DNA of 64,000 nucleotides, from NCBI RefSeq assembly GCF_003946625.1, contig NZ_RHOR01000001.1, positions 248,001 through 312,000 on the forward strand, written 5' to 3'. Below the pieces are notes generated by a model, which saw only the letters and a list, made by a program, of their open reading frames with translations, was not told the origin of the DNA and did not search any database. Position numbers and translations under genes: made by a program. Origin of the DNA: Companilactobacillus kedongensis. GTDB lineage: Bacteria; Bacillota; Bacilli; Lactobacillales; Lactobacillaceae. Every line of letters begins with the position of its first letter. Positions within the stretch are counted from its first letter, which is position 1. Below are positions 4,107 to 62,651 of this stretch, one piece after another.

Positions 4107-5447
4107 ATGGTGAAGTCAGATAATAAGTATGATGCAATTGTAATTGGCGGTGGTCCAGCTGGATTGGCAGAAGCATATGCTTTAAAAGCCGCAAGTAAAA
4201 ATGTTGCCGTGATCGAGAACTACCAGTGGGGCGGAACTTGTCCTAATCGAGGTTGTGATCCTAAAAAGATGTTACTGAGTGGCGTTCAAGCACGAGATCG
4301 AATTGAACAATTACAAGGTAAAGGATTCTCGGATATTCCTTGGGTAAATTGGACTGAACTTGAAACCTTTAAAGAGACTTATACAAGTAAAATTCCTGCA
4401 GGTAGCCGCAATGGAATCGTCAGTGCTGGCATAACGGCTATTGATGGCGAACCTAAATTTATTTCTACTGATCAAGTTGAAGTAAATGGTGAAGTATATC
4501 AGGCGGATAATTTTGTGATTGCTACAGGACAAAGGCCTAGTCGCTTAAATATTACTGGTAAGGAAAATCTATTAACAAGTACTGACTTTATGAATTTGAA
4601 ATCAATGCCTAAAAAGATCATATTTATTGGTGCTGGTTATATTGCCTTTGAGTTAGCAACAATTGCCAGTGCAACTGGGGCTGAAGTACATATTGTCCAC
4701 CATAATGATCGTCCTCTAAAAGAGTTTGATGCTTCTTATGTTGATGAACTAGTTAAACAATTACAATATCGTGGCATTAATTTCCATTTTAATGTTGATA
4801 CCAAGAGTATTGAGAATAATACTAAGGGATATACTTTGAAGGCCGATGATTTTAGTTTAGATAGTGATTTAATCGTTGGCGCTACTGGGAGAATTCCTAA
4901 TGTTGAAGAGTTAGCTTTGGATAGGGCCAATGTAAAATTTGATAACAAGGGTATTCAAACTAATGATCATTTACAGACGACTAATCCTAAAATTTATGCA
5001 ATTGGGGATGTCTTGGACAAAGTAGCACCTAAATTAACACCCGTGGCCGGCTTTGAGGCTAGCTATGTGGCGAGCGTTATCAACGGTAGTCAAAGTCATG
5101 GAATTGTCTATCCAGCTATTCCAACACTAGTTTATGGCGGACCAGAACTTGCTAAAGTTGGCATCAGTACTGTTGAAGCCAAAAAAGATCCTGATAACTA
5201 TCGAGTAGTCGATCAGGATCTAACAAAGTGGTTTACATATTATCGTACGAGTGAACATGTTGCTAAGGCCAAAGTTGTATTTGATAACGATGATCAAATA
5301 GTTGGAGCAACTATTTTAAGTAATGAAGCTGACGAAGTTATCAATTATCTAACAATTGCTATCAATAAAAAAATGAAACATGATAAGATTGCAAATACAA
5401 TTTTTAGTTATCCCACACCAGCTAGTGATCTAGAATATTTGCTCTAA
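4107..5447 (+). CDS. NAD(P)/FAD-dependent disulfide oxidoreductase, glutathione-reductase-like
   Basis: This 446-residue class I pyridine-nucleotide-disulfide oxidoreductase has an N-terminal FAD site (VIGGGPAGLAEA), the redox-active disulfide in GGTCPNRGCDPKK, a central NAD(P) site (FIGAGYIAFELA), a second FAD motif (YAIGDV) and a dimerisation domain. The start at 4107 is chosen because GGGAGG lies 7 nt before it; upstream in-frame starts lack a ribosome site. The C-terminus reads SYPTPASDLEYLL where glutathione and mercuric reductases have HPTxxE, so the usual catalytic His-Glu pair is missing. The substrate may be a low-molecular-weight thiol, but this is uncertain. Confidence 0.88.
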   Translation: MVKSDNKYDAIVIGGGPAGLAEAYALKAASKNVAVIENYQWGGTCPNRGCDPKKMLLSGVQARDRIEQLQGKGFSDIPWVNWTELETFKETYTSKIPAGSRNGIVSAGITAIDGEPKFISTDQVEVNGEVYQADNFVIATGQRPSRLNITGKENLLTSTDFMNLKSMPKKIIFIGAGYIAFELATIASATGAEVHIVHHNDRPLKEFDASYVDELVKQLQYRGINFHFNVDTKSIENNTKGYTLKADDFSLDSDLIVGATGRIPNVEELALDRANVKFDNKGIQTNDHLQTTNPKIYAIGDVLDKVAPKLTPVAGFEASYVASVINGSQSHGIVYPAIPTLVYGGPELAKVGISTVEAKKDPDNYRVVDQDLTKWFTYYRTSEHVAKAKVVFDNDDQIVGATILSNEADEVINYLTIAINKKMKHDKIANTIFSYPTPASDLEYLL

Positions 5448-6176: not shown

Positions 6177-7103
6177 TTATAGCAACATATTTACAAGTTT
6201 TTTTAAATCTTCTTTTTCAGGTATTTCAGGCAACATGTTGATGTCAAAGATAGCCTGGTCTTTATATTCTTTTACCATAACTTGAGCAGCATCAACTCCG
6301 CCGTCGATAACCTGTTCAGCCGTTTCAGCCAAAGCTCTGTCACCAGTTTTACCAGCCTCGGCAATTTTGTTCATAAAATCATTGCCATTCTTACCAATTG
6401 CAAATATGACTGGTAAAGTAAATTCACCATTTTGCAGCATATAGAGTGGTCCAAATTCATTTTCTGAGGTATTTATGCCAATTAAATCAAAGATCTCGCT
6501 TTTAATTTGATAAGCAATACCAATGGTACGACCGATTTCGCCAGCAGAATCGACTAGAACGTCGGAAGCATGGGCGGCTTGAGTACCAAAACGACAGGCA
6601 AATTCAAACATGACTGCTGAACGTGCCTCGACTCGTTTGATATATTCAGCAATATCTTCAACCGGTTTGATCATCTGCTCGTCAGCCAATAATTGATTAG
6701 TTGTAATTTCTTGAACAGCATCAATTTTTCCTTGAAGATCGTCATCGTCAGCGGAGCATTTTCTAAATTCAACGTCGATCAAGTCAGAGAAATATTCCAC
6801 CATGAAATTTAAATTGATAGCATCAGGACCTGCCTGGTGTTTGCGCATTAATTCATTCCGGATATAAAACATTTGCGAAGCTGCAGCAGCATATTGTAGT
6901 GAGTTTTCACGTAATTTATCTGTATCACCAAATCCGGCAAATAAATAAAAGAAAGCTGCGTGTAAAAATCTGCCAGAGTGTAAATATCCTTTGGCTTCAT
7001 TGATGATGTCGTTTTTATTCAATTCAATCAATCTCAACATGTAATCTTCTAGATTGATCAATTTGGTATTTAATCTAGGAAATTGTTGGAAGGGTGATTC
7101 CAT
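6177..7103 (-). CDS. Polyprenyl-synthase-fold protein without catalytic aspartate motifs
   Basis: This 308-residue protein aligns by eye with trans-isoprenyl diphosphate synthases. SGRFLHAAFFYLFAGFGD replaces the GGKRxRP segment; EYIKRVEARSAVMFEFACRFGTQ matches the Y-KTA helix; and EIGRTIGIAYQIKSEIFDLIG matches the GxxxGxAFQxxDDxxD helix. Neither DDxxD motif is present: the first region reads IRNELMRKHQ and the second SEIFD. It is therefore probably not a working prenyltransferase on its own. It is the last gene of a three-gene operon, and AAAGGAAG precedes its ATG. A regulatory or subunit role is possible; I do not assign one. Confidence 0.7.
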   Translation of the reverse strand: MESPFQQFPRLNTKLINLEDYMLRLIELNKNDIINEAKGYLHSGRFLHAAFFYLFAGFGDTDKLRENSLQYAAAASQMFYIRNELMRKHQAGPDAINLNFMVEYFSDLIDVEFRKCSADDDDLQGKIDAVQEITTNQLLADEQMIKPVEDIAEYIKRVEARSAVMFEFACRFGTQAAHASDVLVDSAGEIGRTIGIAYQIKSEIFDLIGINTSENEFGPLYMLQNGEFTLPVIFAIGKNGNDFMNKIAEAGKTGDRALAETAEQVIDGGVDAAQVMVKEYKDQAIFDINMLPEIPEKEDLKKLVNMLL

Positions 7104-58104: not shown

Positions 58105-58792
58105 TGACAGTGCTGATATAAATATTGATGGTGAGATTGTCAGTTATAAATGGGATGATTCTGATACCACAGGAGCATCATTTAGAGATGATCTAAAGGA
58201 GCTTGGTGATGTTAAGACTATTAATCTTCACATCAATTCACCAGGTGGCTCTGTATTTGAGGGAATTTCAATTTATAATCAATTAAAACAGAATAAAGCT
58301 AACGTTAACGTGTACGTTGATGGGTTAGCTGCATCAATTGCAAGTGTCATTGCTATGAGTGGTGACACTATTTTTATGCCTCAAAATTCAATGTTAATGA
58401 TTCATAATCCTTGGACAATGTGCATGGGAAATGCTAAAGAACTTAGAAAACAAGCAGATGATCTTGATCGAGTTGGTGAGCAATCAGTTAAAACTTATCT
58501 TTCAAAGTCAGATGGAAAAATTAGTGAAGATGAATTACGTACGTTGATGGATGATGAAACATGGTTGTCCGCTGATGAAGCAGTTGATTATGGATTAGCA
58601 GATGAAGTTCTTGAAGCAAATCAAGCGGTAGCTTGTATTGTCCCTGACAAATTCAAGAGCATGTTTCAACATTTGCCATCTCAAATTTCTCAAGAAAAAA
58701 AAGATACTATTTCCGATGAACGATTAAAAATGATTGAAAAAGCCAAATTTCAAAATAAAAAAATAAAAGAAACATTAGGAGGACTAGTTTAA
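58055..58792 (+). CDS. ClpP-like prohead protease
   Basis: The 245-residue protein is an S14 serine protease: INSPGGSVFEGISIYNQL, catalytic Ser in GLAASIASVIAMSGD, His in MLMIHNPW and a C-terminal Asp region. It cleaves capsid-protein delta domains during head maturation. GGGGGTG precedes the start inside the portal gene. It overlaps the capsid gene by one base. Confidence 0.94.
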   Translation: MPQKTPKKFWEMNQTSNDSADINIDGEIVSYKWDDSDTTGASFRDDLKELGDVKTINLHINSPGGSVFEGISIYNQLKQNKANVNVYVDGLAASIASVIAMSGDTIFMPQNSMLMIHNPWTMCMGNAKELRKQADDLDRVGEQSVKTYLSKSDGKISEDELRTLMDDETWLSADEAVDYGLADEVLEANQAVACIVPDKFKSMFQHLPSQISQEKKDTISDERLKMIEKAKFQNKKIKETLGGLV

Positions 58793-59934
58793 TGCCAGTT
58801 ACTTTATATCAAATGAAAGATAATCTTTCACAAGTAGGAAAAGAATTACAACAAGTTAATGATGAAATTTCAACGAAGGCAGGAAATCCATCTTTTCCAG
58901 ATACAAGTTTAGATGAACTTAGTGAAAAGGCAGATGGCCTAGAAAAACGTTATAACTTGTTAAAGAATCAAATTGATAAAAAAGAAAAAATTGAATTAAG
59001 TAAAAGCAAAGATTTCAAAGAAGCTTCAGATCCAAAGAAAAAGAAGACTCATGCTTATGCACAATTAATCCGTTCCGTTATGCACAATGAAGCCCCATCA
59101 GAAGAAATCTTCCAAGTTCTTGGGGATGATAATTCTGAACAAACAGGAGGACAATCATTTTTACCTGTTACAGTCTCTAATCAAATTATTACAGAACCAT
59201 TAGATGATAATCCATTAAGACAAGATGAAACTGTTTCAGCAATCACAAATTTAATTCTGCCTCGTGTACGATTCAAAATTGATGATGATGGATTCGTAAA
59301 GGATCAAGAAGTTGCTAAGGAATTAGCATTAAAAGGTGATTCAGTTACATTTGGAAGAAATAAGACAAAAATTAAGGCTGCAATTACAGAAGCAATTCTT
59401 TTAGGAACTGATACAGGATTAGTTTCATATACTAATGCTGCATTGCAATCTGGACTAGCAGTTAAAGAGAAGCGCGTTGCCTTTTCTAAAACACCAAATC
59501 CTGGTGAAGAACATATGAGCTTCTACTCAACCGAAAATAACATTAAATCAGTTGATGGTAAGGATTTATTTGATGCAATTACTAGTGCTGTTGCTGATAT
59601 TGCTGATGGATTCCAAAATGGAGTAAAGATATATATGACACGTCCTAACTACTTGGGAATGATTAAAGAATTATCAAATAGTAGCAGTGATCTATTTGGA
59701 AAGAAACCTGAAGAGATTCTTGGATATCCGGTTAGATTTAGTGAACTTGCAACTAAACCAGTAGTTGGTAATTTCTCATATGCCCAATTGAATTACGAAA
59801 TTTCTCAAACATTATATGAACAATGGAAGGATTACGAAAAAGGTATTAACTATTTCCAACTTACAGCATGGTTTGATCATCAAATTCTATTGTCATCAGC
59901 ATTCCGTTTGGCTAATGTGACAGCGGGAAAATAA
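58792..59934 (+). CDS. Major capsid protein (HK97 fold)
   Basis: This 380-residue protein has an N-terminal coiled-coil scaffold region (residues 1-100, rich in Lys/Glu), then the HK97 fold (GGQSFLPVTVSNQIITEPLDDNPLRQDETVSAI, KIYMTRPNYLGMIKELSN, ILGYPVRFSELATKPVVGNFSYAQLNYE). The protease probably removes the scaffold. The last codons before the stop form the slippery site of a -1 frameshift signal, so a longer form is also expected. Confidence 0.95.
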   Translation: MPVTLYQMKDNLSQVGKELQQVNDEISTKAGNPSFPDTSLDELSEKADGLEKRYNLLKNQIDKKEKIELSKSKDFKEASDPKKKKTHAYAQLIRSVMHNEAPSEEIFQVLGDDNSEQTGGQSFLPVTVSNQIITEPLDDNPLRQDETVSAITNLILPRVRFKIDDDGFVKDQEVAKELALKGDSVTFGRNKTKIKAAITEAILLGTDTGLVSYTNAALQSGLAVKEKRVAFSKTPNPGEEHMSFYSTENNIKSVDGKDLFDAITSAVADIADGFQNGVKIYMTRPNYLGMIKELSNSSSDLFGKKPEEILGYPVRFSELATKPVVGNFSYAQLNYEISQTLYEQWKDYEKGINYFQLTAWFDHQILLSSAFRLANVTAGK

Positions 59935-60101
59935 ATACCCCATCAACAGATGGGGATGATACATTTGATCCCAATGGAGATATAAAACCAACATCATCTC
60001 AAACGGTGGCTGAAATTACATCTTGGTTAAAGTCACATAGTATTGATACTACTGGTAAGACAACCAAAGATGATTTATTAGGTTTAGTACCAACCGATTA
60101 A
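59925..60101 (+). other. Programmed -1 frameshift signal and 56-residue capsid extension
   Basis: The heptamer G GGA AAA (59925-59931) lies in the correct register directly before the 0-frame TAA. After a 6-nt spacer, CCCCATC (59938-59944) pairs perfectly with GATGGGG (59949-59955) around loop AACA. Reading in -1 gives 56 codons to a stop at 60099-60101, with no in-frame start codon. They encode a linker (NTPSTDGDDTFDPNGD) and a HeH/LEM-like fold (TVAEITSWLKSHSIDTTGKT, TKDDLLGLV). Phage A2 of L. casei makes two head proteins by a -1 shift at the same place. Confidence 0.88.
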
Positions 60102-60116
60102 TAGGAAGGTGATTGA

Positions 60117-60443
60117 ATGTCTGATAATGTGGACGAATTAATAAATAATCTAAGGCTTGACAATACAGATAATTCTGAAATTGAATTTTATCGTAATGTA
60201 GCAATTGATTTTATGGTTTCAGCAATTGGTGGTTCAGAGGATGATGAGTTTTATAAGGATAATAAGAGATTTGATTTAGCAGTTCAAATGCTAACTGATT
60301 ATTACTATAAAAATAAGTCTGCAACAACTTCAAATAAGGAAAAAGAAACTTATTACGGAGTGCAGACTTTTATTTTGCAATTGAAACCAGAATACCAGTT
60401 TTGGAAGGAGGCTCAAGACAATGGCAATAGCTCAAACGGGTGA
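60117..60443 (+). CDS. Head-tail connector protein (gp6-like)
   Basis: This 108-residue helical protein (VDELINNLRLDN, EFYRNVAIDFMVSAIGG, RFDLAVQMLTDYYYKN) matches head-tail connector proteins that dock on the portal after packaging. AGGAAGGTGATTG precedes the ATG. It is in the expected place after the capsid gene and overlaps the next gene by 23 nt. Confidence 0.85.
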   Translation: MSDNVDELINNLRLDNTDNSEIEFYRNVAIDFMVSAIGGSEDDEFYKDNKRFDLAVQMLTDYYYKNKSATTSNKEKETYYGVQTFILQLKPEYQFWKEAQDNGNSSNG

Positions 60444-62258: not shown

Positions 62259-62651
62259 ATGATTTCAATTAATTTATTTGATAAAAAAACAAAAGAAACT
62301 AAACATTATGAGCAACATAATATTTCATTTGGTGAATTAAAATCTATTCTTAAATTTAATAAAATCCAGCAAAAAGATGCTGCTGAATTAAAAATTCTAA
62401 ATATGAAAATGAATAATGGAAAAATATTGACGCCTAATGAAGAAAAAAAATATATCACATTATCAGGTAAGGATGATACATATCTTGATTTGCTTGAAGA
62501 ATTAGTTGCCAAATTGTTCAAAAACCCAAAAGTAACAGTTCAAGCAATTGATGAAGGTTTACCAGCGAATGGTATCTCAGCGCTTAAAGATATTCTTGCT
62601 GATGCTATGGGTGGTGTCGAAGCTGAAAATAATCATCCAGCAAAAAAATAA
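62259..62651 (+). CDS. Tail assembly chaperone, short form (gpG-like)
   Basis: The 130-residue protein (start 62259, AAGGAG upstream) is helical and basic/acidic (FGELKSILKFNKIQQKDAAELKILNMKM, YLDLLEELVAKLF). It lies between the tail tube and tape measure, as in gpG/gpGT chaperones. Its stop is preceded by a slippery run, and a longer frameshift form follows. Confidence 0.88.
   Translation: MISINLFDKKTKETKHYEQHNISFGELKSILKFNKIQQKDAAELKILNMKMNNGKILTPNEEKKYITLSGKDDTYLDLLEELVAKLFKNPKVTVQAIDEGLPANGISALKDILADAMGGVEAENNHPAKK

Follow-up and report, generated by a model that had tools for sequence, protein, structure and literature searches.

The extension of a phage capsid protein by recoding is already known for Ig-like domains, and the purpose of such extensions is unsettled. 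The major head protein of the Lactobacillus phage A2 undergoes a -1 frameshift at the capsid stop codon (Garcia et al. 2004, as cited in excerpts of PMC7260188 and PMC5009743), and the excerpted text of PMC5009743 calls the -1 frames of both the A2 head and tail proteins Ig-like. In the A2 sequence the two proteins both end in CCCCAAAAGCG-TAA/TAG, each with a long -1 frame. Ig-like domains have been described on phage structural proteins (Fraser et al. 2006, as cited in parts of PMC5009743 and PMC9022992), and capsid frameshifts are also recorded for gene 10 of T3/T7 and for the Listeria phages PSA, A118 and A500 (PMC5009743, in part). A literature search, with most phage literature outside its scope, yielded no HeH domains added to capsids by frameshifting among the matches listed. 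The idea is partly in print: that MCP3 of phage TP901-1, called a HeH/LEM protein in its phage record, is joined to the head protein through a -1 frameshift was put forward by Popovic et al. 2012 (according to the excerpted part of PMC4493119).

The window analysed here, a stretch of 64,000 nucleotides from Companilactobacillus kedongensis, contains a prophage head region with the order portal, ClpP-type protease, major capsid and head-tail adaptor. The features of its candidate recoding site are as follows:

58792..59934, + strand: major capsid protein, zero frame, 380 aa, with its stop TAA at 59932-59934
59925..59931, + strand: slippery heptamer G GGA AAA, in register and abutting the stop (sequence reading)
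59932..59937, + strand: spacer TAAATA, 6 nt, including the zero-frame stop (sequence reading)
59938..59955, + strand: probable stimulatory hairpin, 7 bp with a 4-nt loop (CCCCATC-AACA-GATGGGG; stem covariation in relatives)
59938-59944, 59945-59948 and 59949-59955, + strand: hairpin parts, namely stem CCCCATC, loop AACA and stem GATGGGG (perfect pairing)
59931..60101, + strand: -1 frame extension, 56 codons and a stop, predicted linker and HeH/LEM-like domain
60117..60443, + strand: head-tail adaptor Ad1, the next gene (phrog_40, 4.9e-16)

By its profile matches the window capsid is a HK97-type major capsid protein: it matches TIGR01554 above the cut-off (2.8e-14; 53.1 bits versus 27.5), PF05065 slightly below it (2.9e-5; 24.0 bits versus 24.2) and phrog_10 (1.8e-32), and a profile of 50 capsid relatives matches the PDB chain 7rwz_B, 'Major capsid protein', at 3.6e-147. 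The closest named records with this capsid are those of Companilactobacillus nuruki (85% identity) and C. futsaii (80%), and it is present in 4 of the 150 relatives' genomes searched, its own genome included. A DNA-level search of the phage collection gave matches only in two records of JCL1032, and searches of the plasmid collection and, for positions 59800-60150, of Rfam gave no matches.

The 3' end of the capsid ORF reads GCG GGA AAA TAA. Direct reading bears out the first-pass annotation in placing G GGA AAA in register before TAA, followed by a 6-nt spacer and a perfect 7-bp hairpin; that is, a heptamer of the form X XXY YYZ lies in the zero frame at the end of the capsid gene, with a downstream structure 6 nt after it. 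Downstream structures of -1 frameshift sites are located about 5-9 nt from the slip site. The -1 frame is open from 59931 to 60098 (56 codons) and closes with a stop at 60099-60101, followed by TAG; an open frame of this length arose by chance in 241 of 20000 first-order Markov sequences. The earlier description of this frame, as open and without a start codon of its own, needs one refinement: a single in-frame GTG (60006-60008) is found within the helical domain, by eye without a Shine-Dalgarno sequence. A scan of both strands for canonical heptamers ending 0 or 3 nt before a stop, covering open frames of at least 100 codons and leaving out 200 bases at each end, returned only two stops in the window, at 59932 and 62649. 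The predicted fold of the window site is by itself modest (61 nt; z -1.85, with 9 of 200 shuffles equally good), and the weight of the evidence comes from relatives. Readthrough of the capsid stop was considered and rejected, the zero frame past TAA reaching another stop after 16 codons.

The stop at 62649 belongs to a second probable -1 frameshift, where AAAAAAA abuts TAA (62642-62651) and a 66-codon -1 frame runs to 62848. The gene is positioned after the major tail protein and by this position probably encodes a G/GT-type tail chaperone; PHROGs, however, labels its first ORF as a head-tail adaptor (phrog_187).

Related prophages were compared, as the first-pass annotation had proposed, and the slippery site and hairpin were found to be kept: four Companilactobacillus-type junctions (L085, L007, L008 and L086) retain GGGAAAA, the stop, the 6-nt spacer, the stem and the HeH frame, and differ from the window in having TAG instead of TAA and a loop of 7 instead of 4 nt. 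As the loop change is a multiple of three, the -1 frame is kept. Over five sequences the pN/pS of the -1 extension is 0.184, versus 0.159 for the capsid, and its variable sites are distributed 16/6/38 across the codon positions; judged by these substitution patterns, the extension is conserved as a protein in the -1 frame. Family members further removed from the window capsid show a variety of junctions, including GTCAAAA-TAA with HeH (Secundilactobacillus similis, L088), AAAAAAA-GCG-TAA accompanied by the same hairpin as in the window (L018), CCCAAAA followed by what looks, by eye, similar to an Ig-like domain (L017), and CCC-stop sites followed by a long +1 frame in others. Across 112 distinct junctions of homologous capsids a slip site, GTCAAAA being included in the count, was found in 19 of the 32 with a -1 ORF of at least 45 aa and in 10 of the 80 with one shorter than 25 aa, and all 10 of the latter have a 21-aa -1 tail.

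Other extensions were encountered among the capsid relatives. In Enterococcus-type capsids (L004, L027, L035, L036, L038, L043, L044 and L096) one codon separates AAAAAAA from the stop, and the conserved -1 tail has only 21 aa. A mostly Paenibacillus set (L077, L116, L124, L128 and L132) has AAAAAAG at the same distance from the stop, with a conserved -1 extension of 92-94 aa that lacks an assigned fold. In a Listeria fleischmannii capsid relative (L093, match end 3065), and likewise in L037, the stop is followed by a 49-aa threonine-rich -1 frame, at which no canonical slip site was found.

The window extension is predicted to be a HeH/LEM-type domain behind a HK97-type capsid, an assignment that is supported by its homologues. 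The module is composed of a helical HeH/LEM-type domain of about 38 aa and an acidic linker. The window copy matches phrog_12526 (function unassigned; 4.7e-12) and gives no match to PF12949 (HeH) at E<=1 in the Pfam search; its other Pfam matches are all below the cut-off (Ish1, 0.0055; FokI_D3, 0.019; Pro-kuma_activ, 0.059; SAP, 0.06), and of these Ish1 and SAP are sub-threshold helix-extension-helix relatives. The homologues, to which the window copy is 22-80% identical, match Pfam HeH/LEM in 21 of 29 aligned cases at E<=0.1 (best 1.3e-9), and the best PDB match of the 29-member profile is the gp35 protein of a Mu-like prophage (2out, 6.5e-4). Three of the 29 weakly match the PlyG cell-wall-binding model (best 0.0013). 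No Ig-like domain (Big_1, Big_2, I-set or FN3) was detected in the window extension at E<=1 in Pfam or PHROGs. The suggestion that the added domain may bind DNA is weakened by the net acidity of all 70 distinct -1 extensions described below (mean -4.8; window copy -6). It keeps some ground in that much of this acidity sits in the linker, the last 38 residues averaging -1.7 (window -1; 2 of 70 positive), and in that phrog_1539, labelled an Arc-like repressor, is matched by 29 of 29 aligned homologues (best 2.1e-9; window 0.006).

The HeH module is present in 58 of 397 genomes of the host family, spanning 17 of 40 genera, in 50 of 395 genomes of the host order (with a looser profile), and in 50 of 50,697 phage records (consensus-like query, E<=0.01). 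A set of 300 loci (L301-L312 being excluded from the frame count) gave 179 domain matches and 123 distinct cases, of which 70 follow a long ORF in its -1 frame, 11 lie in the +1 frame, 23 are fused in frame and 19 are arranged otherwise; since the loci were mostly fetched with the HeH module or the window capsid, these proportions do not represent frequencies in a population. Each of the 70 -1 cases is a different combination of extension and junction, but many of them are related, and they do not amount to 70 independent events. They fall behind nine capsid groups without BLAST links (E<=1e-8 over at least 120 aa) and one major tail protein, the latter accounting for a single junction (L018 at 6520). 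Representatives of the eight non-window groups (A2 for its group) match five major-head PHROGs (10, 29, 247, 422 and 544), and as several groups share one PHROG, some of them are distant relatives. The in-frame class (26 matches, 23 distinct) includes capsid fusions in P7.1, KC5a and phiAQ113, together with four matches of the ribosomal L20 group and one other protein. In the +1 class CCC occurs in register within the last five codons of 8 of 11 loci by eye, or 8 of 10 without L193, a 91-codon ORF in a truncated locus that looks spurious; the HeH frames that follow capsids with CCC in register near the stop are those of L265, L286, L290, L293, L297, L298, L299 and L300, five of which are Streptococcus phages.

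The module is also seen away from capsids. In L018 it lies in the -1 frame behind both the capsid (4131-4328) and the major tail protein (6520-6705; phrog_88). Two genomes of the host's family encode ribosomal proteins with an in-frame C-terminal HeH, namely L20 (L272:1501-2067, - strand; PF00453 and PF12949) and S16 (L277:1159-1608, + strand; PF00886 and PF12949), and six further loci resemble these L20/S16 fusions by eye. Small stand-alone proteins (L163:1315-1635 and L214:2282-2635) show a short N-terminal domain followed by an in-frame HeH; that of L214 resembles phrog_341, a major tail protein family.

At 51 of the 70 -1 junctions the stop is preceded, at a distance of 0 or 3 nt, by a canonical heptamer. 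This count leaves out the distant AAATTTG of L211, and the background is 331 out of 22291 windows of five positions within these ORFs (about 1.5%). The commonest form is CCCAAAA one codon before the stop (32/70), followed by GGGAAAA abutting the stop (12/70), GGGAAAC or GGGAAAT abutting it (4/70), and AAAAAAA one codon before it (3/70); the 19 junctions without a canonical heptamer comprise 13 with GTCAAAA-TAR, three with GGGGGAA, one with GGGGGAG and two with GCAAAAAGC. The non-canonical GTCAAAA-TAR occurs in three capsid groups (e.g. L010, L158, L161, L199, L203, L211, L250 and L287); its AAA codon alone can re-pair, and the TCA is nevertheless kept.

Of 53 strong hairpins, 47 begin 5-7 nt downstream of the slip site assigned to the junction, despite the differing placement of heptamer and stop; of the 67 junctions for which a slip site was assigned, 14 show a weak hairpin or none. 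Hairpin scores reach p<=0.05 at 37 of 70 junctions versus 4 and 3 of 70 in the controls, and the mean fold z of the 45 nt after the stop is -1.50, compared with -0.09 in the capsid ORF and -0.54 inside the HeH. For covariation we used hairpins chosen for at least 6 of 7 pairs (36 distinct ones passed, 21 with 7-nt loops, L178 and L294 being dropped because the aligner gapped them). In the resulting 19 selected hairpins, 97.0% of cells pair; cells changed on both sides of the stem number 18, versus 4.5 after shuffling (0/500 shuffles as high), and pairs with a double change number 4 versus 2.5, a value reached by 30/500 shuffles. At 11 hand-picked closer junctions 100% of cells pair, and four cells are changed on both sides (1/500 shuffles), all of them in one pair (1 pair versus 0.9 shuffled, 448/500).

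The first-pass annotation regarded the window site as an independent variant of the A2 strategy, which the wider comparison fails to establish. Four capsids that are 77, 59, 58 and 55% identical to that of A2 (L235, L159, L157 and L165) carry HeH at the A2 site and share its CCCAAAAGCG-TAA/TAG junction, and independence is further undercut by the presence of GGGAAAA behind several BLAST-distinct capsid groups. Thus, GGGAAAA is one of several interchangeable sites in a cassette that is widely distributed. In one instance (L240) the HeH is read in frame and a 96.8%-identical contig (L249) has the -1 arrangement, possibly owing to a sequencing error in L240. As the slip-and-add arrangement recurs behind many different capsids, it looks swappable rather than accidental.

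The DNA contains the site, the hairpin and a conserved coding -1 frame, and the module recurs and is swapped behind many capsids. Comparison of relatives thereby lends support to the principal earlier proposal, namely that ribosomes shifting to -1 at the end of the capsid gene append a HeH/LEM-like domain. Slippage accounts best for the combined data, and a -1 frameshift very probably makes a capsid-HeH fusion in the window phage. We infer the shifting and its rate as follows: most ribosomes would end the capsid gene at the TAA at 59932, and a smaller share, held up at the hairpin while GGA occupies the P site and AAA the A site, would move back by one base on G GGA AAA and continue through ATA, yielding a capsid subunit with a C-terminal linker and HeH/LEM-like domain. 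On incorporation into particles, the domain would be present on some subunits of a mixed shell, most likely facing outwards, and might act there as an exchangeable adhesion or decoration module in the place where other phages have Ig-like domains. The C terminus of the T7 capsid protein is used for surface display. Outward display is favoured because of this use in T7, because Ig-like domains occupy the same place, and because the ORF directly downstream of the HeH-tailed capsid of L153 carries Big_2, LysM and a HeH stretch; the HeH behind the major tail protein of L018 was also counted for a surface role. On balance we lean towards a role of the extension at the virion surface. More tentatively, the HeH could be a mobile capsid-tethered module, with the slip site, stop and hairpin at about 6 nt forming a reusable cassette across Lactobacillales phages. 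Its dose would be tuned through the choice of frame (-1, +1, or in frame for every copy), it would tether a packaging or cell-surface partner, and stand-alone HeH proteins (TP901-1 ORF37, Mu gp35) would do the same job in other phages; we hold this broader picture to be conceivable, if somewhat short of probable.

An alternative that shares the frameshift and differs as to role sees the HeH as a DNA-packaging or assembly factor, the tethered counterpart of TP901-1 ORF37/MCP3 and Mu gp35. A stand-alone HeH gene (ORF37/MCP3) occupies the same slot in TP901-1, between the capsid and connector genes, and its product matches PF12949 (1.6e-8) and aligns to the 29-member HeH profile (hhalign probability 85.6, E 5.6e-6); in Mu, gp35 comes after the major head protein. 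The best PDB match of the HeH profile, 2out (E 6.5e-4), is also the HHpred entry given for MCP3 in the excerpted part of PMC4493119, which further relates that Popovic et al. 2012 linked MCP3 to lambda gpFI and that a MCP3 mutant has lowered plaquing and is still viable. The packaging chaperone lambda gpFI, however, shows no detectable homology to the HeH profile (hhalign probability 0.4, E 0.14), and its homology to the extension was rejected. Moreover, the module is found behind a tail protein (L018), on ribosomal proteins, and in exchange with Ig-like domains at one site, a pattern more in keeping with a general add-on than with a packaging factor. We consider a packaging role rather unlikely, although it is the strongest competitor of the surface role.

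A more radical departure is that the HeH ORF yields a separate small protein by re-initiation or from an internal start. The TP901-1 HeH protein has its own ATG and, by eye, no canonical heptamer, and according to the excerpted part of PMC4493119 a Western blot against the TP901-1 head protein gave no second band, both of which speak against the frameshift reading; a separate gene is also annotated in the records of Javan161 and LF2 (HeH in +1), and the window has its one in-frame GTG at 60006. Nevertheless, between the start of the open frame and 15 residues into the module, a start codon with a SD-like 4-mer occurs at 0 of the 70 -1 loci and any start codon at 24, which tells against the internal start that the first-pass annotation had named as a possible refutation. 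The window GTG sits inside the domain and is not conserved, the matching codon being GTG in 9 of 69 scorable loci (70 examined), and separate production would leave the slippery sites, the constancy of the spacer and the in-frame fusions unexplained. It thus appears very improbable. Least credible of all is that the -1 frame represents an ORF in decay or one that arose by chance, and that the hairpin is either a terminator or a fortuitous repeat: the hairpin and its AT-rich flank do score as a minus-strand terminator (1 found, shuffle mean 0.1), but on the plus strand the hairpin is not followed by a T-run, and the low pN/pS indicates coding conservation. The minus-strand terminator was rejected, as the stem is kept and covaries in relatives and only short mechanical ORFs of that strand overlap the region.

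In the present case a different fold takes a comparable position in nine BLAST-distinct groups of capsids, across which the geometry of slip site and hairpin is largely conserved. Natural matched pairs, i.e. related capsids with Ig or HeH, in frame or shifted, could serve to test the purpose of domains kept at reduced dose. In nine phages (R10.1, JNU_P1, JNU_P5, LF1, phiPYB5, LFP01, PM411, H1-Guo and phiMH1) no feature is annotated under the HeH match, and the corresponding capsid products are probably missing from databases.

The window and A2 have in common a HK97-type capsid, a -1 shift at the capsid stop (predicted in the window) and a domain added C-terminally; in A2 the added domain is Ig-like and a single codon (GCG) separates the heptamer from the stop, whereas in the window GGGAAAA abuts TAA and the addition would be a HeH domain. 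In general the HeH resembles the Ig-like domains as a promiscuous add-on of capsid and tail proteins, acquired in frame or by a -1 or +1 shift, and differs in being a helical HeH/LEM-type module with an acidic linker instead of an Ig fold; in L018 it stands behind head and tail proteins just as the Ig-like domains do in A2. TP901-1 ORF37/MCP3 and the Mu-like gp35 are comparable in that a HeH-type domain is encoded directly after the major head protein, but they are separate genes, ORF37 lying in the -1 frame with its own ATG. The lambda G/GT tail chaperone frameshift uses the heptamer GGGAAAG, almost the same as that of the window capsid in a different gene, while the tail site of the window is AAAAAAA-TAA. 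T3/T7 gene 10 and PSA, A118 and A500 make two capsid products per gene through recoding, as is predicted for the window; in PSA the shift is +1 at CCC, which the +1 HeH loci with CCC near the stop recall, the T7 extension is not Ig-like, and none of these extensions is described as HeH in the excerpts of PMC5009743. As far as its sequence goes, the window arrangement belongs to a familiar type, the extension of capsids by recoding, but the domain involved is another one, helical and mobile.
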